This document shows positions 26,112 to 42,015 of a stretch of 64,000 nucleotides of DNA, piece by piece. A program made the position numbers and the translations under genes. The stretch covers positions 248,001-312,000 of the forward strand of contig NZ_JAJGNO010000004.1 of assembly GCF_020782235.1 (NCBI RefSeq), written 5' to 3'. This DNA comes from Sphingobium naphthae (GTDB lineage: Bacteria; Pseudomonadota; Alphaproteobacteria; Sphingomonadales; Sphingomonadaceae). The notes beneath the pieces were generated by a model, which ran no database searches, was not told where the DNA came from, and saw nothing but the letters and a program-made list of their open reading frames with translations. Numbering within the stretch: position 1 is the first letter of the stretch; each line of letters starts with the position of its first letter.

Positions 26112-27380
26112 TCAGGCGGCGGCGAGATCACGCATCTCGGCGAGCCGATAGCGCAGCGTGCGTTCCGAAATGCCCAGCTTGCGGGCGGCGGCGGCGCGAT
26201 GGCCGTCGGTTTCGCGCAGGGCCAGGCGAACCGCTTCCAGCTTGGAATGGCGCGTCAGGTCGCGCAGCAGGATCGGCTCGGCGGCGGCGGCGGGCACCGC
26301 AGTGCCGGCGACGATGCGCAGCGGCTGGGGCGCGCCGGAGATATGCAGGTCGGCCGCGTCGATCCGGTCGCCTTCGCGCAGCACCAGCGCGCGCTGGAGC
26401 ACATTGCCCAGCTCGCGGGCGTTGCCGGGCCAGCCATGGGCGGCCAGCTTGTCGAGCGCGGCGGCGGTCGGCCACACGAAGCCGTTCTTCGCGCCGTCCT
26501 GCTGGCGCAGCAGCATGGCGGCGGCGATGGCGGCGATGTCGCCGCGGCGTTCGGCCAGCGGGCGCAGTTCCAGCGCCATGACGTTGAGCCGCCAGTAAAG
26601 ATCCTCGCGGAAGCGGCCGGCGGCGACTTCCTCGGCCAGGTTGCGGTTGCAGGCCGCGACGATGCGGACATTGACCGCCACCGGATGCGTGGCGCCGACG
26701 GGAAGCACTTCGCCTTCCTGCAGCGCGCGCAGCAGCTTGGCCTGGAGCGCGAGCGGCAGCTCGGCGATTTCGTCGAGGAACAGCGTGCCGCCGTCCGCCG
26801 CCAGGAACAGGCCATCGGACGATTGGGCGGCGCCGGTGAAGCTGCCCTTCTTGTGGCCGAACAGCATCGCTTCCATCATGGTTTCGGGCAGCGCCGCGCA
26901 GTTGACGGCGATGAAGTCGTGGCCGGTGCGGCCGGACTGGGCATGAAGGAAGCGCGCCATGCCTTCCTTGCCGGTGCCGGTGTCGCCCTGGATCAGCACG
27001 GTGGCGTCGCTGCGCGCGACCCGCGCGGCGAGCGACATGAGATGCGCGCTGGCGCCGTCGCCCACCGCGGGAACCGAAACGGGCCGGGCGAGTTCAGCGA
27101 TCAGGGCGAAGGCGAAGCCCATATCCTCCAGGCCAAAGGCGACGCGCGCCGGCAGGCCGTTGGCGGCGGCGACCAGCGAAGGCGCCCCGTCGATCAGGCT
27201 GATGAGGATGTCGCGATGCGTGGCATGACCGATCTCGGTCGCCAGCAGGACGCGACGGCTGTCCTTGTCCCGCGGGCTTTGGGCATCGACGATGCGCACG
27301 CTGTAGAAGGCATTTTCGAGCCAGTGCTGGAGCCCAGGAACGAGCGCGCAGACCCCACGGCTCACGTCAAGCGATGACAT
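26112..27380 (-). CDS. flbD: Sigma-54-dependent flagellar transcription activator (FlbD/FleQ-like)
   Basis: A bacterial enhancer-binding protein of 422 residues. The N-terminal part (1 to about 100) does not show the Asp and Lys of a phosphorylatable receiver. The AAA+ domain follows: Walker A GDTGTGKE at 132-139, the sigma-54 contact loop GSFTGA at 179-184 (Ser in place of the usual Ala), Walker B GGTLFLDE at 197-204 and the R-finger region FREDLYWRLNV. A Fis-type helix-turn-helix (AAARKLGISERTLRYRLAEM) ends the protein. It heads the fli run and is the likely activator of the sigma-54 promoters before flgB, flgG, flgA and the SLT-flhA-fliA operon. Confidence 0.92.
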   Translation of the reverse strand: MSSLDVSRGVCALVPGLQHWLENAFYSVRIVDAQSPRDKDSRRVLLATEIGHATHRDILISLIDGAPSLVAAANGLPARVAFGLEDMGFAFALIAELARPVSVPAVGDGASAHLMSLAARVARSDATVLIQGDTGTGKEGMARFLHAQSGRTGHDFIAVNCAALPETMMEAMLFGHKKGSFTGAAQSSDGLFLAADGGTLFLDEIAELPLALQAKLLRALQEGEVLPVGATHPVAVNVRIVAACNRNLAEEVAAGRFREDLYWRLNVMALELRPLAERRGDIAAIAAAMLLRQQDGAKNGFVWPTAAALDKLAAHGWPGNARELGNVLQRALVLREGDRIDAADLHISGAPQPLRIVAGTAVPAAAAEPILLRDLTRHSKLEAVRLALRETDGHRAAAARKLGISERTLRYRLAEMRDLAAA

Positions 27381-27461
27381 GAACTTTTCCCACCTAATTG
27401 TCTGGCTTGTGCCCCCGCACGCCCCAGTCCCTTCGATGGTTAATCTTTACCCGATCCGTGG

Positions 27462-27476
27462 TTATCAGATGGTTAA
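27462..27476. promoter_or_regulatory. Possible CtrA-type site upstream of flbD
   Basis: TTAT-CAGATGG-TTAA matches the alphaproteobacterial CtrA consensus TTAA-N7-TTAA with one mismatch. It lies about 85 bp before the flbD start, and another GGTTAA half site is 20 bp nearer. CtrA often controls the top of the flagellar cascade. Short motif, so the call is tentative. Confidence 0.35.
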
Positions 27477-27480
27477 CACG

Positions 27481-27495
27481 GCAAGTCCGTTGCCG
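27481..27495 (-). promoter_or_regulatory. Weak sigma-54-like element facing flbD
   Basis: Minus strand CGGCAAC-GGAC-TTGC keeps GGCA and TTGC with the right 10-base GG-GC spacing but departs from TGGCAYG at three positions. It ends about 100 bp before the flbD ATG and could allow autoregulation of the fli run. The overlap with the conserved block at 27492 makes the reading uncertain. Confidence 0.3.
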
Positions 27496-27532
27496 GTCGG
27501 CGGCAATTTTTTTCCGCCGCTGCCGCTTCAGC
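27492..27532. promoter_or_regulatory. Conserved palindromic block, copy A (candidate activator site)
   Basis: A 41-bp segment aligns without gaps to 38660-38700, with 32 identical positions. The core here is the imperfect palindrome GCGGCAATTTTTTTCCGC, followed by TGCCGCTTCA. Both copies lie in divergent flagellar spacers, which suits an upstream activating site of the FlbD-type regulator. Confidence 0.55.
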
Positions 27533-27593
27533 TTATCGCGCGCGCGTAAGGGCCGCGCAAATGCGTCGATTCCAGAAAAATCGCATCGGCCCC

Positions 27594-27620
27594 TAAAAGC
27601 TCCCGCCGCCCCGCCGTTAT
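27594..27620 (+). promoter_or_regulatory. Sigma-28 (FliA) promoter of fliC
   Basis: TAAAAGCT, 11 bases, GCCGTTAT: a very close match to the FliA consensus in both elements and in exact spacing. The -10 ends 64 bp before the fliC ATG. The matching sigma factor gene is at 32300-33031. Confidence 0.85.
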
Positions 27621-27684
27621 CCCCTTTCGAGGCCGCAAGCAGCCTGATGGCAGCGACCTGATAGAGACACGGAAAGGGAATATC

Positions 27685-28500
27685 ATGACTGTTATCGGAA
27701 CCAACACCTCGGCGCTGCGCTCGGCCAACGCCTCTTCTGCCGCCAGCAAGGCTCTGTCGACCGCGATGGAACGCCTGTCGACCGGCAAGCGCATCAACAG
27801 CGCGAAGGACGACGCCGCCGGCCTCGCCATCGCTTCCAGCATGACCGCGCAGATCAAGGGCATGACCCAGGGCGTCCGCAACGCCAATGACGGCATCAGC
27901 CTGGCGCAGACGGCCGAAGGCGGCCTCGGCGAAGTCAGCAACATGCTGCAGCGTATGCGTGAACTGACCGTCCAGGCGCTGAACGGCACCAACGACGCCG
28001 ACGCCAAGACCAACATCCAGGCGGAAATCTCGCAGCTCGCCACCCAGATCACCGACACGCTGGCGAACACCGAATTCAACGGCACCAAGCTGTTCGACGG
28101 TTCGACCGCCACGGTCAGCATCCAGGCCGGCGCCAACGCTGAAGACGTTGTCGACATCACGCTGGACGACGTGGCCGGCAACGCCGACGTCACCGCCGCC
28201 CTGGCCGTCGACGCCACCACGGCGACCACCGCCGACCTGGCGACCTTCGACGACGCGCTGAAGGCGATCGCGACGACCCGCGCCAACCTGGGTGCGGTGC
28301 AGAACCGCCTCGAATCGACGGTCAACAACCTGACCAACAACATCACCAACCTGACCGACGCGAAGAGCCGCATCGAAGACGCCGACTTCTCGTCGGAAAC
28401 GACCGCTCTCGCCAAGCAGCAGATCCTCAGCCAGGCGTCGACCGCCATGCTGGCCCAGGCCAACCAGAGCCAGCAGGGCGTGATGAAGCTGATCGGCTAA
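27685..28500 (+). CDS. fliC: Flagellin
   Basis: The filament subunit, 271 residues. The conserved N-terminal D0/D1 helices ([20 protein letters not shown], residues 34-53, and [20 protein letters not shown]) and C-terminal helix ([20 protein letters not shown]) are present, with only a short variable middle, so the outer D2/D3 domains are missing, as in many alphaproteobacterial flagellins. The last residues VMKLIG are a normal flagellin end. It has a strong AAAGGGA ribosome-binding site, its own sigma-28 promoter and a strong terminator, so it is monocistronic. Confidence 0.96.
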
Positions 28501-28621
28501 GGATAACGAAATTGGTCGGCTGAGGTCTTGGTCACCGCCAGCCGCCCAATGGAGCCCCCGGCGCATCAACAGTCCCCACCGCGCCGGGGGCGACACCTTC
28601 GATCGAACGACCAGCCTATTT

Positions 28622-28656
28622 GAAGCCTCCGTCCCCCCGGGCGGAGGCTTCTTTCG
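28622..28656 (+). terminator. Rho-independent terminator of fliC
   Basis: A perfect 10-bp stem GAAGCCTCCG/CGGAGGCTTC with a 10-base C/G-rich loop is followed by TTTCGTTT. It lies 120 bp beyond the fliC stop and separates flagellin from opgG. Confidence 0.85.
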
Positions 28657-28700
28657 TTTCGGGCGGGATACAAGACTTGGCTTGATCGTTTTGCCGGTCC

Positions 28701-30221
28701 ATGACCCAGACCATGACGAAGATCGATCGGCGCGCGATGATCGCCGCCTCGGGCGCCGCCCTCCTCCTGCCGTCCGCGCTCGGCGCGCAAAGCCTGATCG
28801 GCAATCGCCCCGCGCCCTTCTCCTGGGAACGGCTGGTGGCGCAGGCGCAGCAGCTGACCCGCACCCCCTTCAAGGAGACGCCGGCGCATCCCGGCGCGGC
28901 GAAGGTCGATTATATCGCCCAGCATGAGGCGCGCTTTCGCGACGAGCGCACCTTGTGGGGCGACCTGCCCGGCGACACGGGCATCCGCTTCTTTCCCCTG
29001 TCCCAATATTCCACGCAGCCGGTGACGATCGCGACCGTGGACAATGGCCGCGCGACTCCGCTGCGCTATGACCCGGACATGTTCGACGCGCCGGCAGGCA
29101 ATGCGGTGAAGGCGCTGGGGCCCGATGCGGGCTTCGCCGGTTTCCGCATCATGAACGCCGCGCGCGATGGCGATTGGCTGTCCTTCCTCGGCGCAAGCTA
29201 TTTCCGCGCGCCCAGCCCGCAGAAGCAGTTCGGCCTGTCGGCGCGCGCGATCGCGATCAACACCAGCCTGGGCAAGGAGGAATTTCCGCGCTTCACTCAT
29301 TTCTGGCTGGAGCGGACGGGCGAGCATGGCGTCACCATCTATGCGCTGCTCGACGGCGCCTCCATCACCGGCGCCTATCGCTTCGTCAGCAGCCTGGGCG
29401 CCGACGGCGTGCATCAGGACGTGACCGCCGCCTTGTTCCCGCGCCGGCCGATCGAGGAACTGGGCCTGATGGCGATGACCAGCATGTTCTGGTATGATCA
29501 GGCAAACCGCGGCAAGGGCACCGACTGGCGTCCGGAAATCCACGACAGCGACATTTTGTCGATCGCCAGCGCCGATGGCACCGCCCATGCCCGGCCGATC
29601 ATCAATCCCCCCACGCCGCTGGTCAGCGCCTTTGCCGAGCGCGACCCCAAGGGCTTCGGCCTCGTCCAGCGCGACCGCGATTTCGACCATTATCAGGATG
29701 ACGGCGTCTATTATGATCGCCGGCCCACCCTGTGGGCCACGCCGACCCGCGCGCTCGGACAAGGCCAAGTGCGGCTCTACAGCTTCCCGACCGACAGCGA
29801 ATATACCGATAACGTCGTCGCCTACTGGACTCCCGAGGCCGCCGCTGTTCCCGGCCGGCGGATCGACGCCAGCTACCGCGTCGACTGGAGCGCGGCGCGC
29901 GCGCCCGCGTCGGCCGCCTTGGGGCAGAAGGTCGCGATCGTCGAGAATGTGTGGCGCGGGCGCGGCGACGAAGAGGGCAGCGACCGGCTGGTCGTCGATT
30001 TCGCCGGTGTGGCCGACGGCGCCAAGCCCGACATCTGGACCGACATCAGCGCCGGTACGATGCTGAAGACGGCGGGCTATCCGGTGCTGGGGCAGCCCGG
30101 CCTCTACCGCATGGTGCTCGACCTGCGGCGCGAAGGGACCGGGCTGACCGATATCCGGGCGCAGCTGCGCCTGGGCGGGCGTGCAATCAGCGAGTATCTG
30201 CACTATCCTGTCGGCCCCTGA
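28701..30221 (+). CDS. opgG: Glucan biosynthesis protein OpgG/OpgD (MdoG family)
   Basis: The MdoG family acts in the periplasm on osmoregulated periplasmic glucans. The 506-residue protein starts with a Tat-like signal (DRRAMIAASGAALLLPSALGA), as found in OpgD members, then shows family segments FFPLSQYSTQPVTI, GFAGFRIMN, FLGASYFRAPSPQKQFGLSA and YGLSARAIAI-like continuation, and the late FWYDQANRGKGTDWRPEIHD. The length is normal. It is followed by opgH nine bases on. Whether G or D type cannot be settled here; the Tat signal points to D-like, the operon to G. Confidence 0.88.
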   Translation: MTQTMTKIDRRAMIAASGAALLLPSALGAQSLIGNRPAPFSWERLVAQAQQLTRTPFKETPAHPGAAKVDYIAQHEARFRDERTLWGDLPGDTGIRFFPLSQYSTQPVTIATVDNGRATPLRYDPDMFDAPAGNAVKALGPDAGFAGFRIMNAARDGDWLSFLGASYFRAPSPQKQFGLSARAIAINTSLGKEEFPRFTHFWLERTGEHGVTIYALLDGASITGAYRFVSSLGADGVHQDVTAALFPRRPIEELGLMAMTSMFWYDQANRGKGTDWRPEIHDSDILSIASADGTAHARPIINPPTPLVSAFAERDPKGFGLVQRDRDFDHYQDDGVYYDRRPTLWATPTRALGQGQVRLYSFPTDSEYTDNVVAYWTPEAAAVPGRRIDASYRVDWSAARAPASAALGQKVAIVENVWRGRGDEEGSDRLVVDFAGVADGAKPDIWTDISAGTMLKTAGYPVLGQPGLYRMVLDLRREGTGLTDIRAQLRLGGRAISEYLHYPVGP

Positions 30222-30230
30222 GGGGAACCG

Positions 30231-32165
30231 TTGCGGACGCGAGCGGTTCTGACGCTCGGGTCATTAGCAGACGGGTCTGGGATCATGGGGAATGGAGGCG
30301 CGCCGTCGACCGGATCGACAGGCGAGGACAAGCCATTGGCGCGGGCCTTTGAACAGGTGCCCGCCGAAAGCCCGCTCGCCATGCCCGAGCAGGATTTCGA
30401 CACGACGCCGCCGCTGATCGCGCGCCGCCGCTTCAATATCGACCTGTGGGCGCGCCGCCTGCTGGTCGTCACTCTGACCCTGATCCCCGCCGCGCTCGCC
30501 GCGCATGAAATGCGCCGGTCGATCGGCCTCGACGGCATCAGCGTCATGGAGGGCGTCTATCTCACCCTCTTCATCTCGCTCTTCGCCTGGATCGCCTTCG
30601 GCTTCGCGACCGCCGCCATCGGCTTCCTGTTGCTGACCGTGGGCAAGGGCCGCAGCGTCACTCCCCGCCCCCTGCGCGCGTCCGAACCGCTGCACGGCAA
30701 GACCGCCATCTTGCTGCCCGTGTGCAACGAGGATTTTCTGGGCGTGCTCGGCCGCCTGTCGATCATGGAGCGCAGCCTGGCGCAGGTGATGGGCGGCGAG
30801 CGGTTCGAATTCTTCATCCTCTCCGATTCCAACGCCGAAAGCGGCGAGACGGAAAAGCGCGCCTATCAGGAAATGCGCGACTCTTTCTCGCGCCCCGTCC
30901 ATTATCGCCGCCGCGCGCTCAATATCGGGCGCAAGCCCGGCAATATCGCCGAATGGGTGCAGCGCTTCGGCGGCGGCTATGATCATATGATCGTGCTGGA
31001 CGCCGACAGCATCATGAGCGGCCAGACCATGGCCCGGCTCGCCGCCGACATGGAGCGGCACCCCCATGTCGGCCTGATCCAGACCGTGCCCACCGTCATG
31101 GGCGCGGCGACCCTGTTCGCGCGCTGGCAGCAATTCGCCAGCCGCCTGTTCGGGCCGATCTCAGCCGCGGGCATGATCTGGTGGGCCGGCTCGGAAGGGA
31201 TGTTCTGGGGCCATAACGCGATCGTGCGCGTGCGCGCCTTCGCCGAAAGCTGCGGCCTGCCCGAACTGCCGGGCCGCGCGCCCTTTGGCGGCCATATCCT
31301 CAGCCACGACATGCTGGAGGCGGCATTGCTGCGCCGGCGCGGCTGGGACGTGCACATGGTGACGGCCGACGACAGTTTCGAGGAATTCCCGCCTTCCATG
31401 CCCGACCTCTTCACCCGCGACCGCCGCTGGTGCCAGGGCAATATCCAGCATGTGCCGCTGCTGATCCGCATCGCCGGGCTTCATCCGCTCAGCCGTTTCC
31501 AGCTGCTGGTCGGCGCGACTGCCTATTGCACGTCGCCCATGTGGCTGGCGCTGATGCTGGTGGTGCTGGGCGGCGCGGCGAGCGGATATTGGCCGCCGGC
31601 GCAGGTGCTGCCGTCGGGCGCCTTGCTGGGCGTGACGGCCGTGCTGCTGTTCGGGCCCAAGATCCTCGCCATCCTCTGGGCGATGGCGGACCCGGCGCGG
31701 CGCATCGGCTTTGGCGGCGCGGCGCGGATGACGCGCGGCGTCATCGTCGACATCCTGCTGTCCATCCTGATGGCGCCGGTCGCGATGCTGACCCAGACGA
31801 TCAACCTCGTCACCATATTGATGGGCAAGAAGGCGAGCTGGAACGGCCAGACCCGCGACCGCGACGGCATGGCCATCGGCAGCGCAATCTGGCTGTTCAA
31901 ATGGCATATCCTGCTGGGCGTGGCGCTGACCTGGCTGGCGGTGGAGGCGGGCGCTGTCGGCTGGACGCTGCCAGTGGTCGCGGGCCTGTTCGCCGCGCCG
32001 CTGCTCGCCGCCATCACCGCGCGCAAGGATCTGGGCCGCCGGGCCGAGGAAAGCGGCCTATTCCAGGTCGCCGACCCCTGGTGGCGCACGCAGAGCTACC
32101 GCCCGCTGCGCTTCCGCTGGCCAACGGGCGAACGCCGGCGCGCCATCGCGGCGAATGACGAGTAA
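30231..32165 (+). CDS. opgH: Glucan glucosyltransferase OpgH (MdoH)
   Basis: OpgH is a membrane GT2 enzyme that polymerises glucose from UDP-glucose to osmoregulated periplasmic glucans. The 644-residue protein has membrane segments near residues 75-135 and 420-600, a cytoplasmic GT2 domain with VCNED near 165, the LDADSIMSG metal motif, and the acceptor motif RDRRWCQGN. I use TTG 30231, preceded by GAGGGGA; ATG 30285 is a possible later start. It follows opgG by nine bases, forming an opgGH operon. Confidence 0.93.
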   Translation: MRTRAVLTLGSLADGSGIMGNGGAPSTGSTGEDKPLARAFEQVPAESPLAMPEQDFDTTPPLIARRRFNIDLWARRLLVVTLTLIPAALAAHEMRRSIGLDGISVMEGVYLTLFISLFAWIAFGFATAAIGFLLLTVGKGRSVTPRPLRASEPLHGKTAILLPVCNEDFLGVLGRLSIMERSLAQVMGGERFEFFILSDSNAESGETEKRAYQEMRDSFSRPVHYRRRALNIGRKPGNIAEWVQRFGGGYDHMIVLDADSIMSGQTMARLAADMERHPHVGLIQTVPTVMGAATLFARWQQFASRLFGPISAAGMIWWAGSEGMFWGHNAIVRVRAFAESCGLPELPGRAPFGGHILSHDMLEAALLRRRGWDVHMVTADDSFEEFPPSMPDLFTRDRRWCQGNIQHVPLLIRIAGLHPLSRFQLLVGATAYCTSPMWLALMLVVLGGAASGYWPPAQVLPSGALLGVTAVLLFGPKILAILWAMADPARRIGFGGAARMTRGVIVDILLSILMAPVAMLTQTINLVTILMGKKASWNGQTRDRDGMAIGSAIWLFKWHILLGVALTWLAVEAGAVGWTLPVVAGLFAAPLLAAITARKDLGRRAEESGLFQVADPWWRTQSYRPLRFRWPTGERRRAIAANDE

Positions 32166-32299
32166 GATCGGGGCGCAGTCATGCGTTGCCCTTGGGCGGG
32201 CGACAATAGCCCGCATCGGCGCGCCTGAGCCTTGCCGGGCCCTTTGCCAGGCTCAGGTGAACGAAAGGCGAGAGCGGGCCTGCGACAGCCCTCCGACGA

Positions 32300-33031
32300 T
32301 CACTCGTCCCAGTCGCGCAGCTTCTCGCGCAGCTTGTCGAGCGCGGCCTTCTTGATCTGGCACACGCGCGCCGCGCCGATGTCCAGCGTCTGGCCGATTT
32401 CCTCCAGGTTCATTTCCTCGACGAAATAGAGCTGCAGCACCATCGCTTCGCGCTGGGGCAGTTCGCCGATGCAGGCGGCGAGCGCCTTCTTGAGCGATTC
32501 GCGCTCCAGCACCTGGTCGGCGCGGTCCTCGACATCGGCGAACCACATCGACTGGTCGGAATAGACCTCATCCATGCTGGTGTGCTGCACCATCTCGACG
32601 CTGTCGGCGACTTCGCGATAGGCGGCGGGCTCCAGGCCCATCTCGCTCGACATTTCCGCTTCGGTCGGCAGCCGGCCGAGCTGCTGCTCCAGCCGATTGC
32701 GGACCCCGGCAATTTCTTTCCGCTTGGCCATTGCCGACCGGCAAAGCGTTGCCTGCCGGCGCAGATGGTCGATCATCGCGCCGCGCACGCGCAGCTGGGC
32801 ATAGGCGGCAAAGCCAAGGCCGCGATCCTCGAAACTGTTGGCGGCCTCCACCAGCGCGACCATGCCGATCTGCAGCAGGTCCTCGACCTCGATGGCGGTG
32901 GAAACCCGCCCGTGCACGTGCCAGGCGATCTTGCGCACCAGCGGCATATATTGGCGCGCCAGCCGCTCGGGGCTATGCTCGCCGGGCTTGCCATAGGTGT
33001 GTGCGCCAGCCGCGATCTTGTTCATATACAT
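32300..33031 (-). CDS. fliA: RNA polymerase sigma-28 factor FliA
   Basis: FliA directs late flagellar transcription. The 243-residue protein has sigma regions 2 (VEDLLQIGMVALVEAANSFE, FAAYAQLRVRGAMIDHLRR), 3 (GRLPTEAEMSSEMGLEP) and 4 (LPQREAMVLQLYFVEEMNLE, then an LDIGAARVCQIKKAALDKLR helix-turn-helix). Length is typical. The ATG at 33031 and one two codons later are both possible. It follows flhA by 25 bp and is thus probably driven by the sigma-54 promoter at 36071. Candidate targets in this window are fliC, fliD, flgM and motA; FlgM is its antagonist. Confidence 0.95.
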   Translation of the reverse strand: MYMNKIAAGAHTYGKPGEHSPERLARQYMPLVRKIAWHVHGRVSTAIEVEDLLQIGMVALVEAANSFEDRGLGFAAYAQLRVRGAMIDHLRRQATLCRSAMAKRKEIAGVRNRLEQQLGRLPTEAEMSSEMGLEPAAYREVADSVEMVQHTSMDEVYSDQSMWFADVEDRADQVLERESLKKALAACIGELPQREAMVLQLYFVEEMNLEEIGQTLDIGAARVCQIKKAALDKLREKLRDWDE

Positions 33032-33056
33032 GGCTCAGTCCCTCGGGCCCAGTGTC

Positions 33057-35189
33057 TCAGGCCACGCGTTCACGCATTTGGTCCTGCCGCGGCAGCGGAT
33101 CGTGCCGGGGCGCCGGACGCGAGTCGTTTCCTACCACCGCAACTACTTCCACACCCTTACCGTCCGGAATCTCCAGGAAGGACAGCACCGGGGTTTCGGG
33201 CAGATGCGGCTTGAACAGGCGGGCAAGCGCCCGGCGCGCCACCGGCGACGTCACGATGGCGAAGTTGCGCGCCTGGCCCAGCATCGGGCGGGCAGCGTTC
33301 ACCACCTGCTCGACGATGCGGTTGGCGAGGCTGGGTTCGATCGGATGCTTGGCGTCGCCGCCCACGCGCATCGCCTGCGCCAGCATCGCTTCCAGTTCGC
33401 CGTCGAGCGTGATGACGGGCAGCGGCATCTTCACCGGCACCAGCCCCTGGATGATGAGCGCGCCGATGCGCTGACGCACCGCTTCGACCAGCTGCTCGTG
33501 GCTCATGTCGGGGCGACCGCCATCGACCATCGCCTCGCAGATGCGGCGGAAATCCTTGAGCGCGATGCCTTCGCTCAGCAGGGCGCGGCACAGCGCGCTG
33601 ATCTGCGTCAGGTTGAGCAGGCCCGGCGTTAGCCCGTCGACCAGCTGCGGCGCGACATCCTTCAGATTGTCGAGCAGCTTGCGCGCTTCATCCAGGCCGA
33701 ACATCTCGGCCGCATTCATCGCGATCAGCTGGTTGAGATGAGTGGCGACGACCGTCGGCGGATCGACCACGGTATAGCCCGCGACGACGGCTTCGCTGCG
33801 CTTGGCCTGCGAAATCCAGACGGCGTCGAGGCCGAAGGTCGGGTCCTTGGCGGGGCGGCCGGTGACGGTGCCTTCCAGCGCGCCGCTGTCGAGCGCCAGC
33901 AGATCCTCGGGCCAGATCTCGTCCTCGCCCACGACGACGCCGGCGATGGTGATGCGATACTGGTTGGGCTCCAGCGCCAGATTGTCCTTCACGCGCACCA
34001 TCGGCACGACGAAGCCCAGTTCCTTCGACAGCTGGCGGCGGATGCCGGTGATGCGGGCCATCAGCGGCGCGCCCTTGCGCTCGTCGACCAGGCTGATGAG
34101 GCCATAGCCGATCTCCAGCCCCAGGATCGCACCGTCCGACACGTCATCCCATTCGATGAGCGCGGGATTGGGCGCGGGCGGCAGCGGCGCGGGCTCGGCC
34201 GCCTTCTTCTGGCTCGCCTTGCGCAGTTGCCAGGCGATGCCGCCGGCGACGGCCGCGGCCGGCAGGATGATCATGTGCGGCATGCCCGGCAGGATGCCCA
34301 GGAAGCCCAGGATGGCGGCGACCGGCACCCAGGCCTTGCCGCTGCCGAACTGGCTGGCGACCTGGCCCGACAGGTCCTGCTCGCTCTTCACGCGCGTCAC
34401 GATGGACGCCGCGGCGATCGACAGCAGCAGCGCGGGGATCTGCGCCACCAGCGCGTCGCCGATGGCCAGGATGATGTAGGTCTGCGCGGCCTCGCCAATG
34501 GCCAAGCCATGGCTGACCACGCCCAGGATGATGCCGCCGATGATGTTGATGACCAGAATCAGGATGCCCGCGACCGCGTCGCCCTTCACGAACTTGCTGG
34601 CGCCGTCCATCGAACCGTAGAAGTCGGCCTCGGTCGCGACTTCCTGGCGACGAACCTTGGCTTCGTCGGGGGTGAGCAGGCCGGCGTTCAGGTCGGCGTC
34701 GATCGCCATCTGCTTGCCCGGCAGGGCGTCCAGGGTGAAGCGCGCCGACACTTCGGACACGCGGCCCGCGCCCTTGGTGATGACGACCAGGTTGATGATC
34801 ATCAGGATGGCGAAGACGAAGATGCCCACGACATAGTCGCCGCCGATCAGGAAGTGGCCGAAGGCTTCGATCACCTGGCCAGCCGCGTCCGCGCCTTCAT
34901 GACCCGACACCAGCACCACGCGGGTCGAGGCGACGTTGAGCGCCAGGCGCAGCAGCGTCGCGAACAGAAGAACGGTCGGGAAGCTGGAGAAATCCAGCGG
35001 CTTGGCGGCGTTCAGCGCCACCATCAGCACGGCCAGCGAAATCATGATGTTGGTGATGAAGCCGAGGTCCAGCATGATAGCCGGCACCGGCACCATCATG
35101 AACAGCACGACCATCAGGGTGGCGAAAGGCAGCACCGCGCCTTTGGCGGCGCTCATCCAGATTTTCGCTTTGACTTGGGCAGGAGACAT
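33057..35189 (-). CDS. flhA: Flagellar export gate protein FlhA
   Basis: FlhA is the large nonameric export-gate protein. The 710-residue protein has about eight membrane helices in residues 15-320, the FHIPEP signature region represented by DADLNAGLLTPDEAKVRRQE with the conserved Asp/Arg residues, and the cytoplasmic C-domain from about residue 340 ending in late VRVKDN and PHLPETPVLSF segments. It starts 10 bp after the upstream transglycosylase gene and is followed by fliA, so export gate and sigma-28 are made together. Confidence 0.96.
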   Translation of the reverse strand: MSPAQVKAKIWMSAAKGAVLPFATLMVVLFMMVPVPAIMLDLGFITNIMISLAVLMVALNAAKPLDFSSFPTVLLFATLLRLALNVASTRVVLVSGHEGADAAGQVIEAFGHFLIGGDYVVGIFVFAILMIINLVVITKGAGRVSEVSARFTLDALPGKQMAIDADLNAGLLTPDEAKVRRQEVATEADFYGSMDGASKFVKGDAVAGILILVINIIGGIILGVVSHGLAIGEAAQTYIILAIGDALVAQIPALLLSIAAASIVTRVKSEQDLSGQVASQFGSGKAWVPVAAILGFLGILPGMPHMIILPAAAVAGGIAWQLRKASQKKAAEPAPLPPAPNPALIEWDDVSDGAILGLEIGYGLISLVDERKGAPLMARITGIRRQLSKELGFVVPMVRVKDNLALEPNQYRITIAGVVVGEDEIWPEDLLALDSGALEGTVTGRPAKDPTFGLDAVWISQAKRSEAVVAGYTVVDPPTVVATHLNQLIAMNAAEMFGLDEARKLLDNLKDVAPQLVDGLTPGLLNLTQISALCRALLSEGIALKDFRRICEAMVDGGRPDMSHEQLVEAVRQRIGALIIQGLVPVKMPLPVITLDGELEAMLAQAMRVGGDAKHPIEPSLANRIVEQVVNAARPMLGQARNFAIVTSPVARRALARLFKPHLPETPVLSFLEIPDGKGVEVVAVVGNDSRPAPRHDPLPRQDQMRERVA

Positions 35190-35198
35190 GATCGGCCG

Positions 35199-36044
35199 TT
35201 ACCTTCCGAGGGTGGCAAGCATGAGATAGGCGAGGCGCGCGGTTTGCGGCTGCGGCCGGACGGTGACGTCGGGCTGCTCGGCAAGGCGCTGGGTTTCGAT
35301 CCGCACATAATCGGCGGGCTGAACGGTCTTGGCGCCGCTCGGCAGGCCGGCGGCCGCGCTCGAAGCGTCGGCATATTGCACCGGACCGCCCAGGCTGTCC
35401 GAGCTTTTCTGGAGCTTGGCGGCGAAGCGGTCGCGAATTTCCGAGAAGCTGCGGGCATTGCCCGACCGGTCGTAGAAGATGGAGCGGTTCGCGCGCGCGG
35501 CCGACGGGAACATCGACGCCGCGCTCGCCTGCGGCGCGCGGTCATGCACCGACAGGAACTTGGCCGCACCCCCCACGCCCAGGAAATGAGCGAGGTAGAG
35601 GTCGACCGGCTCGGCTTCGCGGCCCAGGCGGCTTTCCAGATAGGCCTTGTTGTCGGCGGCATGCTGCGCGGCCATGACCGACGCGGTTTCGGGATGCTTG
35701 CGCAGGTCCAGTATCTGCTGGCGCAGTTCCGGATCGGCGACCTGATAGCGGCCGTTGCTGCTGCGGCTGATGGCGTCCGATGCCCAGCCAAGGCCATATT
35801 GGCTGCCATGCTTGTCGATGACGGCGAGCCAGCTCTGGTCGATGAACTGGTACAGGCCAGTGGCCGAAGAGGTGGAGGCGCGCGCGGTCGGGTTCAGGCT
35901 CGATTCGATCTTCGCCTGTCCCAGCAGATAGCTGAAGTCGACACCCGTGCGCCGGCTCGCCATGGCGATCGCGTTGGTCACGCGATTGCCGGTCGATCCG
36001 GAAGCTGCCGATATGTCTGCGAAAGCCGACACGAATTCTATCAT
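35199..36044 (-). CDS. Lytic transglycosylase (SLT domain), probably flagellar
   Basis: A 281-residue protein with an N-terminal SLT-type domain: catalytic Glu47 in LLGQAKIESSLNP and the following ATGLYQFIDQSW and YLAHFLGVGGAAKFL motifs. No Sec signal is seen, so it may leave through the flagellar export gate as FlgJ does. FlgJ at 44739-45080 lacks its own muramidase domain, so this enzyme is the likely partner that opens peptidoglycan for the rod. It lies just before flhA and downstream of a sigma-54 promoter. Confidence 0.85.
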   Translation of the reverse strand: MIEFVSAFADISAASGSTGNRVTNAIAMASRRTGVDFSYLLGQAKIESSLNPTARASTSSATGLYQFIDQSWLAVIDKHGSQYGLGWASDAISRSSNGRYQVADPELRQQILDLRKHPETASVMAAQHAADNKAYLESRLGREAEPVDLYLAHFLGVGGAAKFLSVHDRAPQASAASMFPSAARANRSIFYDRSGNARSFSEIRDRFAAKLQKSSDSLGGPVQYADASSAAAGLPSGAKTVQPADYVRIETQRLAEQPDVTVRPQPQTARLAYLMLATLGR

Positions 36045-36070
36045 CCTCAGTTGCTAGCTGCGGACATTAG

Positions 36071-36086
36071 AGCAAGGGCCATGCCA
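36071..36086 (-). promoter_or_regulatory. Sigma-54 promoter of the SLT-flhA-fliA operon
   Basis: Minus strand TGGCATG-GCCC-TTGCT, a full match to TGGCAYG-N4-TTGCW. The -12 element is 27 bp before the transglycosylase ATG at 36044. This places fliA (sigma-28) under sigma-54 control. Confidence 0.85.
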
Positions 36087-36130
36087 AGATTTGGTTAACG
36101 CGGCGGCAGGAATTTACGGGCCGCACAACG

Positions 36131-36153
36131 AAAAACGGCGCCCGAAGGCGCCG
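36131..36153 (-). terminator. Rho-independent terminator of flgA-flgM-flgN
   Basis: Minus strand: perfect 7-bp stem CGGCGCC/GGCGCCG with a TTCG tetraloop, then TTTTT. It begins 25 bp past the stop of the FlgN-like gene. Confidence 0.88.
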
Positions 36154-36178
36154 CTTTAGACTTAACGTGAAAAAATTT

Positions 36179-36487
36179 TCAGCGGCCGTAGGTCAGCGGC
36201 GCGGTGCGGGCGCCGTGCGAGGCCAGGATGGAAAGGCGCTGGCTGGCATGGTCGGCCAGCAGGTTGACGCGCACCCGCGCGCTGTCGATCAGCGGCAGCA
36301 TCGCCCGGATCCGGTCGGCCAGCGCCGGGTCGGACCGCCACGCGCCGATTGCGCGCACGCCGGCGGCGGCGCGGCTGACGCGATGCGTCGCCGATTCGAT
36401 CGCCGCCACGTCATTGCCACCCAGCACGGCACGCAATTCCTCGAACGCGTCGTGCAGGTCATTGAGGGCGGCAAGGCCAAGCGGCAT
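36179..36487 (-). CDS. flgN: FlgN-like flagellar export chaperone
   Basis: A 102-residue helical protein (LNDLHDAFEELRAVL, IESATHRVSRAAAGVRAI, LPLIDSARVRVNLLADHASQ) without signal peptide. Size, predicted all-helical structure and position directly after flgM (12-bp gap) match FlgN, the chaperone for hook-filament junction proteins FlgK and FlgL. Sequence similarity alone would be weak, so the name rests largely on context. Confidence 0.6.
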   Translation of the reverse strand: MPLGLAALNDLHDAFEELRAVLGGNDVAAIESATHRVSRAAAGVRAIGAWRSDPALADRIRAMLPLIDSARVRVNLLADHASQRLSILASHGARTAPLTYGR

Positions 36488-36499
36488 GAGGCGAAATCC

Positions 36500-36778
36500 T
36501 TAATCCTTGGCGGGCAGATCGAGTTCGAGCATCCGCTCGGCGATCGCATCCGGATTGACCGGATAATTGCCCGACGCGATCGCGCTCTTGATCGCGGCGA
36601 TCTTGTCCATGTCCACTGGGGCGCCTTCGGCCGCCATGCGAGCGGCCGGGCTGGTCGATGCGGCGGCGCTCGACGCGGGGGTGGCGCCGGTCGCGGTGGT
36701 GGCGCGCGTCTTGCCGCCTTCCCGCAGGCTGGTCGCGCCGATGGCGCTGCCGATGCTCTGGCCAACAGAGTTGATCAT
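36500..36778 (-). CDS. flgM: Anti-sigma-28 factor FlgM
   Basis: FlgM holds FliA inactive until it is exported through the finished hook. The 92-residue protein has a disordered Thr/Ala/Ser-rich N-terminal half and the family C-terminal pattern: DMDKIAAIKSAIASGNYPVN followed by PDAIAERMLELD. It is the usual size. It follows flgA by 45 bp; a sigma-28-like element in that gap suggests autoregulation by its own target. Confidence 0.9.
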   Translation of the reverse strand: MINSVGQSIGSAIGATSLREGGKTRATTATGATPASSAAASTSPAARMAAEGAPVDMDKIAAIKSAIASGNYPVNPDAIAERMLELDLPAKD

Positions 36779-36810
36779 AGGTCTAATCCTTCACTCGTCC
36801 TTCCACCCCT

Positions 36811-36837
36811 ATAACGGACAAGTTCAAAAATCATTAA
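36811..36837 (-). promoter_or_regulatory. Possible sigma-28 promoter of flgM
   Basis: Minus strand TTAATGAT, 11 bases, TCCGTTAT. The -10 and the spacing agree with the fliC promoter; the -35 is poorer. It overlaps the end of flgA and its -10 lies 33 bp before flgM. Autoregulated flgM promoters of this kind are known in enteric bacteria. Confidence 0.5.
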
Positions 36838-37393
36838 ATCCCGGAACGCGCACAACGCCCATTTCCACGATCTGCGCGAAAATCGGCGCGCTTTTGCGGT
36901 CTTCGCGCACCCGGATGGTGTCGCCCACGGCGCCGCCTTCGTCCGCAATCATCATGCGCGACACGCTGAAGGCGGCGTTGCCGGCCAGCAGCTGCACCGG
37001 ATCGCCCTTGCGCACGACATCCTCCTTGGGCGCGGCCATGGCGGCGCGCGTGAAGCGATTGGGGCTCGCCGCGGCGCCGGGCACCGGGCCATAGCTGGCG
37101 GCGGCCACGCCCTTCACCAGCGGCACGCGGATGCGCCAGCCCAGCGCCTCGCACTTCACCATCGCCGCGCCGAAGACCGGGCCTTCTACCGTGGGTGTGG
37201 TGGGGCAGGCGGCCAGGCGCAGCCGGCGATCGACGGGTGCGGCGGGCCCGCCCGGCTCGCCCAGATTGGCGCCGACGGTCATCGCGACCAGGCTGTCGAT
37301 GCGATCGAGATTCTCGAACGTCTGCTGCGCCAGCGCGGGCTGCACGGTGGCGAGCGCGGCGACAGCGAAGAGGATGGACGAAAGGCGAAGCAC
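36824..37393 (-). CDS. flgA: P-ring assembly chaperone FlgA
   Basis: FlgA is a periplasmic chaperone for P-ring assembly by FlgI. The 189-residue protein has a Sec signal peptide (MLRLSSILFAVAALATVQP, cleavage near ALAQ) and a SAF-like C-terminal region: EDVVRKGDPVQLLAGNAAFS and GAVGDTIRVREDRKSAPIF. The length fits the short alphaproteobacterial type. A near-perfect sigma-54 promoter stands about 40 bp upstream, overlapping nothing, and flgM follows. Confidence 0.92.
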   Translation of the reverse strand: MLRLSSILFAVAALATVQPALAQQTFENLDRIDSLVAMTVGANLGEPGGPAAPVDRRLRLAACPTTPTVEGPVFGAAMVKCEALGWRIRVPLVKGVAAASYGPVPGAAASPNRFTRAAMAAPKEDVVRKGDPVQLLAGNAAFSVSRMMIADEGGAVGDTIRVREDRKSAPIFAQIVEMGVVRVPGFNDF

Positions 37394-37434
37394 GGCAGTC
37401 TCCTGTCAGGGAACGGTTTCTTGCCCAGACTGCC

Positions 37435-37449
37435 GCAATTTTCGTGCCA
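37435..37449 (-). promoter_or_regulatory. Sigma-54 promoter of flgA-flgM-flgN
   Basis: Minus strand TGGCACG-AAAA-TTGC, a perfect match to the consensus. The -12 lies about 42 bp before the flgA ATG. Confidence 0.88.
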
Positions 37450-37455
37450 GACGGA

Positions 37456-37950
37456 TCAGCTGCGGGATTTGCGCCCCGGCGCGATGCGGATCCACTGCCC
37501 CTGCCCCGCCTGATCCTCCGCCTGATCGAGGCCGCGGATCAGCAGCCGGTCGCGCGCCACGCCTTGCGCCTCCAGCGCGCGCGCCACTGCGCCCAGCCGC
37601 GCGGCCGCCAGATCCCATTCGTCGAAGCGCTGGCGGCGCGGATCGGCGCCCTGGCTGCGGATTTCCACCGCCGGGGCCTGCGCGAAACGCCGCGCCAGAC
37701 GCGCGATCTGCGCCTCGCCCCGCGCGCTCAGCAGCGCTTCGCCGGGCAGGAACAGGTTGGCGGCGCGCAGGGCCGAGCCCTGCGCCACCGGCTGGCCGCC
37801 AAATTGCCGACTGACCTGCGAGAGCATTGCGTCGCGCCGCGATCCGCTCGCCTGCAGCAGCACGAAGAAGGCGAGCAGCAGCAGCAGCAGGTCGGCAAAG
37901 CTGATCGCCCAGCGATTGCGCCGGGCGAGCGGGAGGGACTGGGCGGTCAT
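37456..37950 (-). CDS. Second, compact MotB-like stator protein
   Basis: From the ATG that overlaps the preceding MotA-like stop (ATGA), the protein has 164 residues. It has one N-terminal membrane helix, WAISFADLLLLLLAFFVLLQ, with an Asp at position 20 where MotB carries the ion-binding Asp, and a C-terminal OmpA-like peptidoglycan-binding segment (VEIRSQGADPRRQ, RLGAVARALEAQGVARDRLL). It is less than half the length of the other MotB (350). The frame stays open upstream, but that part lies over motA2. It may form a second stator with its neighbour. Confidence 0.8.
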   Translation of the reverse strand: MTAQSLPLARRNRWAISFADLLLLLLAFFVLLQASGSRRDAMLSQVSRQFGGQPVAQGSALRAANLFLPGEALLSARGEAQIARLARRFAQAPAVEIRSQGADPRRQRFDEWDLAAARLGAVARALEAQGVARDRLLIRGLDQAEDQAGQGQWIRIAPGRKSRS

Positions 37951-38615
37951 GCGACCTCGCGCATCGCGGCGCGGCGCAGCGGCGCATTTTCGCGCCGGGC
38001 GATCGCCAGCATGCGGTCCGCCGCCTCGCGCTGCCAGGCCAGTTCGCGCTCCGACAGGTCGGCCAGCCGCGCGGCAATCGGCGCGGCGATCATGTTGGCG
38101 ATGACGACGCCATAGAAAGTGGTGAGCAGCGCCAGCGCCATGGCTGGGCCGAGCGCGGCGGGATCGTCCATCGCCGCGAACATGCCGATCAGGCCGATGA
38201 CGGTGCCCGCCATGCCCAGCGCCGGCGCGGCGTCCGCAATGGAGAGCCAGACGCGATGCACGGCGGCATGGCGCTGCGCGCGGTCCGCCAGCAGCTGCGT
38301 CGCCCACAGCTCGAACGCCTCGCTACGGTCGCAATTGGCGAGCTTGCGGGCGGCGTCGGTCAGGAAGATGTTGGCGGTCTTCACTCGGTCGGTGCAGGAC
38401 AGGCCGCGCAATTGCGCCACCTGGTCGATCTGGAGCATGGCCGCGCGCGCCGCATCACGGTCCCGCGCGGGGTCCGCGCGCAGCAGCGGGCGCAGCGCTC
38501 CGAACGCTCGCCCCATCGCCCCCACGCCATTCTGGAACAAGGCGACCAGGCCGATCCCCGCCAGCATCGCCAGCAGCGTCACCGGGTCGAACAAATGGCC
38601 GAAAATCGCGAGCAT
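37947..38615 (-). CDS. Second, compact MotA-like stator protein
   Basis: A 222-residue protein of the MotA/TolQ/ExbB family. Helices are seen at about residues 8-27, 137-162 and 163-190, with the characteristic PALGMAGTVIGLIGMF and TTFYGVVIANMIAAPI stretches. The cytoplasmic part (RADPARDRDAARAAMLQIDQ and following) is shorter than in the MotA at 47402. It is coupled to a MotB-like gene by an ATGA overlap, and lies divergent from flgB, so a flagellar role is likelier than a TolQR role. Confidence 0.82.
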   Translation of the reverse strand: MLAIFGHLFDPVTLLAMLAGIGLVALFQNGVGAMGRAFGALRPLLRADPARDRDAARAAMLQIDQVAQLRGLSCTDRVKTANIFLTDAARKLANCDRSEAFELWATQLLADRAQRHAAVHRVWLSIADAAPALGMAGTVIGLIGMFAAMDDPAALGPAMALALLTTFYGVVIANMIAAPIAARLADLSERELAWQREAADRMLAIARRENAPLRRAAMREVA

Positions 38616-38659
38616 GTCCCTCTAGTCCCCATCCGTTCGCCGACGGCCGGCAACGGCCT

Positions 38660-38700
38660 GCCGGCAAGCGGCAAAATTTTGCCGCCCTTGCCGCTTCACC
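38660..38700. promoter_or_regulatory. Conserved palindromic block, copy B (candidate activator site)
   Basis: Contains the perfect 18-bp palindrome GCGGCAAAATTTTGCCGC at 38669-38686, then CTTGCCGCTTCACC. It aligns ungapped with 27492-27532 at 32 of 41 positions in the same orientation towards the plus-strand gene. It lies about 60 bp upstream of the flgB sigma-54 promoter, an expected distance for an enhancer. Confidence 0.6.
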
Positions 38701-38758: not shown

Positions 38759-38774
38759 TGGCACGGCTCTTGCT
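38759..38774 (+). promoter_or_regulatory. Sigma-54 promoter of flgB
   Basis: TGGCACG-GCTC-TTGCT, a perfect match. The flgB ATG is 85 bp downstream of the -12 element. It probably drives flgBCDEF and perhaps more. Confidence 0.9.
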
Positions 38775-38858: not shown

Positions 38859-39230
38859 ATGTCGGTGGAAGACAATCTGTTCGGGATCCATGGAAAGGCG
38901 CTGGCGCTTCGCTCGCAGCGCCTGTCCCTGCTCGCGTCCAACATCGCCAATGCCTCGACCCCCGGCTACAAGGCGCGCGACATCGATTTCGAGGCCGCGC
39001 TCAAGGAAGCGACGGCGCAATCGTCCGGCGCATCCTCGACCGACATGGGCCAGGCGGTGGAAGACGCCATGGGCTATCGCGTGCCGCTGCAGCCCAGCCT
39101 CGACGGCAATACGGTCGAACTCAGCACCGAACAGACGCTGTTCGCCGAAAATGCCGTCAAATATCGCACGACCCTGTCCTTCCTGGAAGGTCGCATCAAC
39201 ACCATCAACCGCGCGCTGAAGGGAGAATGA
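38859..39230 (+). CDS. flgB: Flagellar proximal rod protein FlgB
   Basis: FlgB is a rod subunit next to FliE. From ATG 38859 it has 123 residues with the rod-family N-terminus LSLLASNIANASTPGYKARD and a C-terminal helix (FAENAVKYRTTLSFLEGRIN). The reading frame is open much further upstream but that region holds the promoter. A TTG two codons earlier is possible. The stop overlaps flgC as ATGA. Confidence 0.93.
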   Translation: MSVEDNLFGIHGKALALRSQRLSLLASNIANASTPGYKARDIDFEAALKEATAQSSGASSTDMGQAVEDAMGYRVPLQPSLDGNTVELSTEQTLFAENAVKYRTTLSFLEGRINTINRALKGE

Positions 39231-41999: not shown

Positions 42000-42015
42000 T
42001 GGCACGCCTCTTGCT
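42000..42015 (+). promoter_or_regulatory. Sigma-54 promoter of flgG
   Basis: TGGCACG-CCTC-TTGCT, a perfect match, 86 bp before the flgG ATG. It lies just after the flgF stop and likely drives flgGHIJKL. Confidence 0.9.

Follow-up and report, generated by a model that had tools for sequence, protein, structure and literature searches.

A predicted FlbD-type operator at the flgB and flbD promoters of Sphingobium naphthae and its variation in the Sphingomonadaceae

Two spacers between divergent flagellar genes of Sphingobium naphthae carry a similar block of 41 bp, which raises the question of what protein it binds and which operons it serves. The blocks lie in a stretch of 64,000 nucleotides of contig NZ_JAJGNO010000004.1 (positions 248,001 to 312,000, forward strand; hereafter the window, whose numbering is used throughout), one between flbD and fliC (27492-27532, copy A) and the other upstream of flgB (38660-38700, copy B). 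An earlier note, made from the letters of this DNA, had taken the block for the binding site of the activator encoded beside copy A. On comparative sequence evidence we consider it highly probable that the block is an operator for this FlbD-type sigma-54 activator (26112-27380), which would form a looping enhancer at flgB, with the second copy serving flbD-fliEFG.

Two blocks and a sigma-54 promoter

The blocks are identical at 32 of 41 positions, without gaps and on the same strand. Elsewhere in the window, no 41-bp match to either block has more than 26 identities, and the best score in 1000 dinucleotide shuffles for copy B was 28/41 (plus strand). The likeness first noticed is borne out. 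The perfect 18-bp palindrome reported for copy B, GCGGCAAAATTTTGCCGC, does exist, one base to the left of its first assignment (38668-38685, not 38669-38686), and has a single exact copy in the 4.28-Mb genome. Copy A was rightly called a degenerate version: its core (GCGGCAATTTTTTTCCGC, 27500-27517, the predicted FlbD box of the flbD promoter) is asymmetric, with a right arm TTTCCG, a form common to most relatives. It is one among eight additional genome places with at most three mismatches to the palindrome.

Beyond copy B, 58 bp away and thus close to the roughly 60 bp estimated before, a perfect match to the sigma-54 promoter (TGGCACGGCTCTTGCT, 38759-38774, plus strand) precedes flgB (38859-39230, plus strand, 123 aa, PF00460). 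The flgB element had been described as one palindrome; it consists instead of two palindromes 21 bp apart and a third half-site. Site 1 (CGGCAACGGCCTGCCG, 38648-38663) has conserved arms, site 2 (CGGCAAAATTTTGCCG, 38669-38684) is the core of copy B, and the half-site TTGCCG occupies 38688-38693.

Conservation and spacing at flgB

The earlier note had proposed a search of other sphingomonad genomes, and this found the block conserved at flgB and present also in flbD/fliC spacers. The congeneric sample comprised 94 genomes, one of which (G059) has no flgB match. The 90 loci fetched, confirmed by the FlgB start (71 by pattern, 19 by eye), all have an exact CGGCA-N6-TGCCG upstream of flgB, as do three genomes initially omitted (four loci, one from a repeat genome), giving a total of 93/93 genomes with a flgB match, S. 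naphthae included. The longer form CGGCAA-N4-TTGCCG is found in 90/90 loci, with no mismatch in 78 and one in 12, and the promoter element TGGCAC-N5-TTGC is exact in 90/90. Alignment of the 89 distinct upstream sequences gave conserved columns CGGCAA-N5-TGCC, 21 bp further on CGGCAA-N4-TTGCCG, and then TTGCC, so that the third half-site beside site 2 is also kept.

For the other genera of the Sphingomonadaceae we used 53 of the 54 loci with a flgB match, leaving out a weak match (G599). Exact CGGCA-N6-TGCCG is present at flgB in 41 of the 53; every other spacing gave 0-3 (N5 in one), and a letter-reversed control 0-1 per spacing. Five further loci have a one-mismatch site 58 to 111 bp from the -24 element.

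Helical phase

Distances were taken start-to-start from the exact site to the -24 element. Across the other genera they fall at 48-49, 58-61, 68-70, 79-80 and 90-93 bp, with single distances at 72, 77, 95, 98, 105, 108 and 113 and two remote ones at 179 and 211. The 32 genus-level classes closer than 130 bp gave a vector length R of 0.65 at a period of 10.7 bp, reached by 0 of 20,000 uniform draws; the statistic is indicative, as genera are not independent, and we place weight on the recurrence of several separate steps. Congeneric genomes have sites 89-91 and 110-112 bp from the -24 element, and single sites at 101 and 123. Steps of ∼10.7 bp are what a looping sigma-54 enhancer would be expected to show, and their recurrence is comparative evidence for a flgB enhancer confined to one helical face. 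The two CGGCA-N6-TGCCG palindromes, whose centres are some 82 and 103 bp before the -24 element, and the half-site would act together by looping, in the service of the middle-class rod/hook operon.

The adjacent activator

The protein encoded at 26112-27380 (minus strand) has the AAA+ sigma-54 interaction domain (PF00158) and the Fis-type helix-turn-helix (HTH; PF02954) of a sigma-54 activator, or bacterial enhancer-binding protein, and a domain search found no receiver-domain match in it. Its GAFTGA loop reads GSFTGA, a one-residue variant. The gene is followed by fliE, fliF and fliG, with fliC divergent. ZraR and FlrC chains match the protein better than FleQ does. In a tree of AAA+/HTH regions, from which 11 rows missed by the Walker-motif pattern were omitted, 11 sphingomonad proteins form a clade that excludes 32 Caulobacter-type ones; branches are long, and the tree does not decide orthology. 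All further Sigma54_activat matches in this genome are on other contigs.

Activator and box differ together in one genus

Seven of the 53 loci from other genera have no near box. One belongs to genus g258 (G526), where the box was not found and no activator was seen near flgB; the other six are all of one genus (g6). Counting boxes with at most one mismatch and less than 130 bp from the -24 element, the FlbD box occurs at 0/6 g6 loci versus 44/46 others, 39 of them exact. In the 20 kb on either side of flgB, the helix ISERTLRYRL was found in none of the six g6 genomes. Five of them encode a FleQ-type activator with the helix LKRTTLIEKMRKYG in that interval, and the sixth (G555) has a nearby activator with a different HTH, IQRTTLIGKMNKYN. 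For the activator of one of the five, G442, Pseudomonas aeruginosa FleQ is the best among solved chains, HTH included. The genome-wide FlbD search, which within g6 covered G442 alone, gave a best match of 1.9e-61 there; five genomes from elsewhere in the family reached 8.7e-94 or better.

The five genomes with the FleQ-type activator have CGTCA-N6-TGACG with 0, 1, 1, 1 and (G442) 2 mismatches, 79-90 bp from the -24 element. All five keep the right arm TGACG without change; for the left arm, three have CGTCG and one has TGTCG. At up to one mismatch this motif is found at 0/46 non-g6 loci; two mismatches do not separate the FlbD and CGTCA-type boxes (39/46 non-g6 loci reach that level), and one regular expression for the g6 box was composed after viewing the sequences.

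Family-wide conservation, phasing to the sigma-54 promoter and the different box in g6 strongly support FlbD as the ligand of copy B, which is very probably an FlbD enhancer of a flagellar sigma-54 promoter; to this extent the first assignment of the block to the adjacent activator stands. The conservation, the spacing, the helical phase and the different box beside another kind of activator near flgB are features of the genomes themselves; from them we infer that FlbD binds and that this binding would activate flgB. We give an even chance to a wider interpretation, in which the flagellar sigma-54 activator (FlbD- or FleQ-type) would have been exchanged within one family and the enhancer would have changed along with it at one or two positions in each half-site (CGGCA/TGCCG to CGTC(A/G)/TGACG), with N6 and helical phase unchanged, while the Sphingomonadaceae box is one spacing base off the Caulobacter-type N5 box. 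These genomes would then record how an operator was re-specified in nature while its face towards the promoter stayed the same. The natural difference in activator and box offers a ready-made test of DNA choice by Fis-type HTH activators.

The flbD/fliC spacer

A site of at least 13 bits lies 123-136 bp (about 129) from flbD, measured to its centre, in 62 of 66 flbD/fliC spacers; the same sites are 176 to 357 bp from fliC. The other four spacers comprise one with a site of 12.8 bits at 129 bp, two whose best site is at 207 and 89 bp, respectively, and one without a site. With a matrix built from flgB sites, leaving out the genome's own, copy A has the second-highest rank of the window. Between copy A and flbD are two half boxes TTAACCAT (27469-27476 and 27436-27443, both minus strand), which we take to be CtrA-like. 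Such boxes (ATGGTTAA) lie between site and flbD in 44/66 relatives, at offsets 86-96 and/or 55-57 from flbD. On the other side, fliC has what is presumably a sigma-28-like promoter, TAAA-N15-GCCGTTAT (27594-27620, plus strand), exact in 42/66 relatives, with 1-3 mismatches in the remaining 24, and mostly 85-99 bp from the fliC start.

Because the distance of the site to flbD is near-fixed and that to fliC variable, and because the fliC promoter is sigma-28-like, copy A is likely to be an operator of the flbD operon (flbD-fliEFG), placed just upstream of the CtrA-like boxes. The earlier link of copy A to fliC is thus not upheld. That copy A could be a fliC enhancer is suggested by its location in a spacer shared with fliC and by extra sites 104-189 bp from fliC in some more distant relatives (10 matches labelled up_FliC among the 66 loci); given the near-constant distance to flbD and the kind of fliC promoter, we regard this as unlikely. 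As an operator of flbD-fliEFG, copy A most likely lets FlbD regulate its own gene, in analogy to ftr4 of Caulobacter. PMC3930126 describes repression of fliF by FlbD through ftr4 in Caulobacter, which suggests autorepression here; for the sign of FlbD action back on flbD, repression is thus favoured.

The flbD/fliC spacers of Rhizorhapis and Blastomonas (L066, L069) have a CGTCA-type, FleQ-like palindrome despite an FlbD with the ISERTLRYRL helix.

Other sites and promoters

With up to one mismatch, CGGCAA-N4-TTGCCG occurs at 37 places in the genome (control 26), five of which are in one 11-kb flagellar stretch (window 27501-38684). Among the 15 places listed with loci, flgB alone has a sigma-54-like match within 400 bp. 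Two FlbD-box-like sites of 18.4 and 13.3 bits, 32 bp apart, lie inside fliA (32705-32756), and the list for the window has no sigma-54-like match near them. A minority of relatives also have sites of 13 bits or more within fliA (19 in_FliA matches; FliA is present in 47/66 loci), and their position is common to that minority. In several relatives and in other genera, FlbD-box-like sites lie in or near a fliK-like gene (L067 17541, L192 16119, L194 16165, L195 16323; gene context verified for L067 and L192).

A weak FlbD box of 11.3 bits (36102-36121) is 16 bp upstream of a sigma-54-like promoter (36071-36086, minus strand) of a transglycosylase-like gene, and another genus has a stronger site before the same gene (L191 15527). 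Exact sigma-54 matches are also found upstream of flgA (37434-37449, minus strand) and flgG (42000-42015). A promoter with a sigma-54 16-mer identical to that of flgB (L084, about 3039; G000:C11:118537) precedes a PII/AmtB-like pair, named by eye, and inspection by eye found no box there. The flagellar cluster also contains fliA and flhA (32300-35189) and, between fliC and fliA, the periplasmic glucan genes mdoG and mdoH (28701-32165).

Other ligands, RNA structure and chance

Several results weigh against an FlbD operator. When one mismatch is allowed in the 53 loci of other genera, N6 rises to 48/53, but other spacings give 5-14 and the letter-reversed control gives 2 to 9 (5 at N6). Genome-wide enrichment of exact sites is modest, and there is none in the genome itself (1 versus control 1). 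No box lies within 400 bp of the perfect sigma-54 promoter of flgG at 42000. Within g6, G555 has no CGTCA-type box (up to one mismatch) upstream within 130 bp, its match sitting downstream of the promoter; in another genome (G566) the box is present, yet no activator gene was found within ∼20 kb of flgB. The window protein scores 290 bits against the NCBIfam FlbD model (NF050807), versus a cut-off of 750. A Caulobacter-type HTH profile gives it 25.5 bits, less than the 28.8 and 26.0 bits of two further activators in the genome; as a link between the window protein and Caulobacter FlbD this profile was discarded as not decisive.

That HTH comparison leaves room for another protein, such as a repressor or a nucleoid protein, as the ligand of the operator, as do the sites inside fliA and the relatives' fliK-like gene, which are not at sigma-54 promoters. 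Such a ligand is improbable in view of the phasing with the sigma-54 promoter, of the box that differs in the genus with another activator type near flgB, and of the location of the remaining Sigma54_activat matches on other contigs. An RNA hairpin or terminator is very improbable: copy B does fold (-30.7 kcal/mol, z -2.4, with 5/200 shuffles as good), but it has no T-run after it and is upstream of both divergent genes. We rejected the hairpin because the arm letters themselves are near-invariant over the 89 distinct sequences, while the loop varies. Chance similarity, for which the GC-rich composition of the spacers might be invoked, can be dismissed given the shuffle scores and is refuted by the conservation in relatives.

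Comparison with known flagellar regulators

FlbD as the operator's ligand puts the block beside the ftr sites of Caulobacter crescentus, where, according to PMC3930126, a sigma-54 activator from the flagellar cluster acts through sites for middle-class sigma-54 operons and a site at the early MS-ring operon, the latter controlled by CtrA. The present system likewise ties one site to a flagellar sigma-54 promoter and has another at the promoter of the early MS-ring operon, with flbD, fliE, fliF and fliG behind it. The palindrome geometry differs: 14 of 33 non-sphingomonad loci with a Caulobacter-type FlbD have CGGCA-N5-TGCCG (up to one mismatch) at fliF, and here it is CGGCA-N6-TGCCG. The comparison used FlbD-like genes in fliF clusters (35 fetched, two without FliF). 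Around the fliF start of these 33 non-sphingomonad alphaproteobacterial loci, the N5 form accounts for these 14; spacing 9 was found in seven, spacing 12 in five and each remaining spacing between 3 and 8 in 0-3. The reversed control gave one at N5 and at most five at any other spacing. Exact whole-genome counts (hand sums) were N6 55 versus control 16 and N5 28 versus 27 in 21 congeneric genomes, N6 12 versus 0 and N5 12 versus 4 in five genomes of other genera, and N5 43 versus 24 and N6 45 versus 31 in the 33 other alphaproteobacteria. Thus, the N5/N6 contrast outside the family is visible locally, not genome-wide. Among the matches listed, a sigma-54-like match lies no more than 300 bp from the exact N5 site in 8/19 loci outside the family versus 0/11 inside; for random positions in the same 30 loci the figure is 9%.

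FliX (PF10768) has no match in the genome of S. naphthae, with a positive Caulobacter control. It matches in 159 of 290 genomes of the class, none of them Sphingomonadaceae, and five Sphingomonadaceae genomes are without a match. Sphingomonads are not uniform in this respect, since fliX is reported from Sphingomonas sp. WG (PMC8921679).

The P. aeruginosa FleQ box, given as GTCAAT-N2-ATTGAC in PMC10723142, has the inverted-repeat geometry GxCA-N6-TGxC, proposed there for an HTH dimer and shared by the present box. The half-site differs, GTCA there and GGCA here; the form GTC(A/G)-N6-TGAC, of the same geometry, occurs in g6. A literature search that covered few subscription papers gave no sphingomonad FlbD motif. 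A flagellar FlbD operator is of a known kind, and the present one is an ftr-like element with a geometry of its own. What is new is that geometry, the record of phasing and the way in which box and activator differ as a pair. For the flagellar activator, in a large family of environmental bacteria, this offers a predicted operator with its geometry and a rule for its phase.

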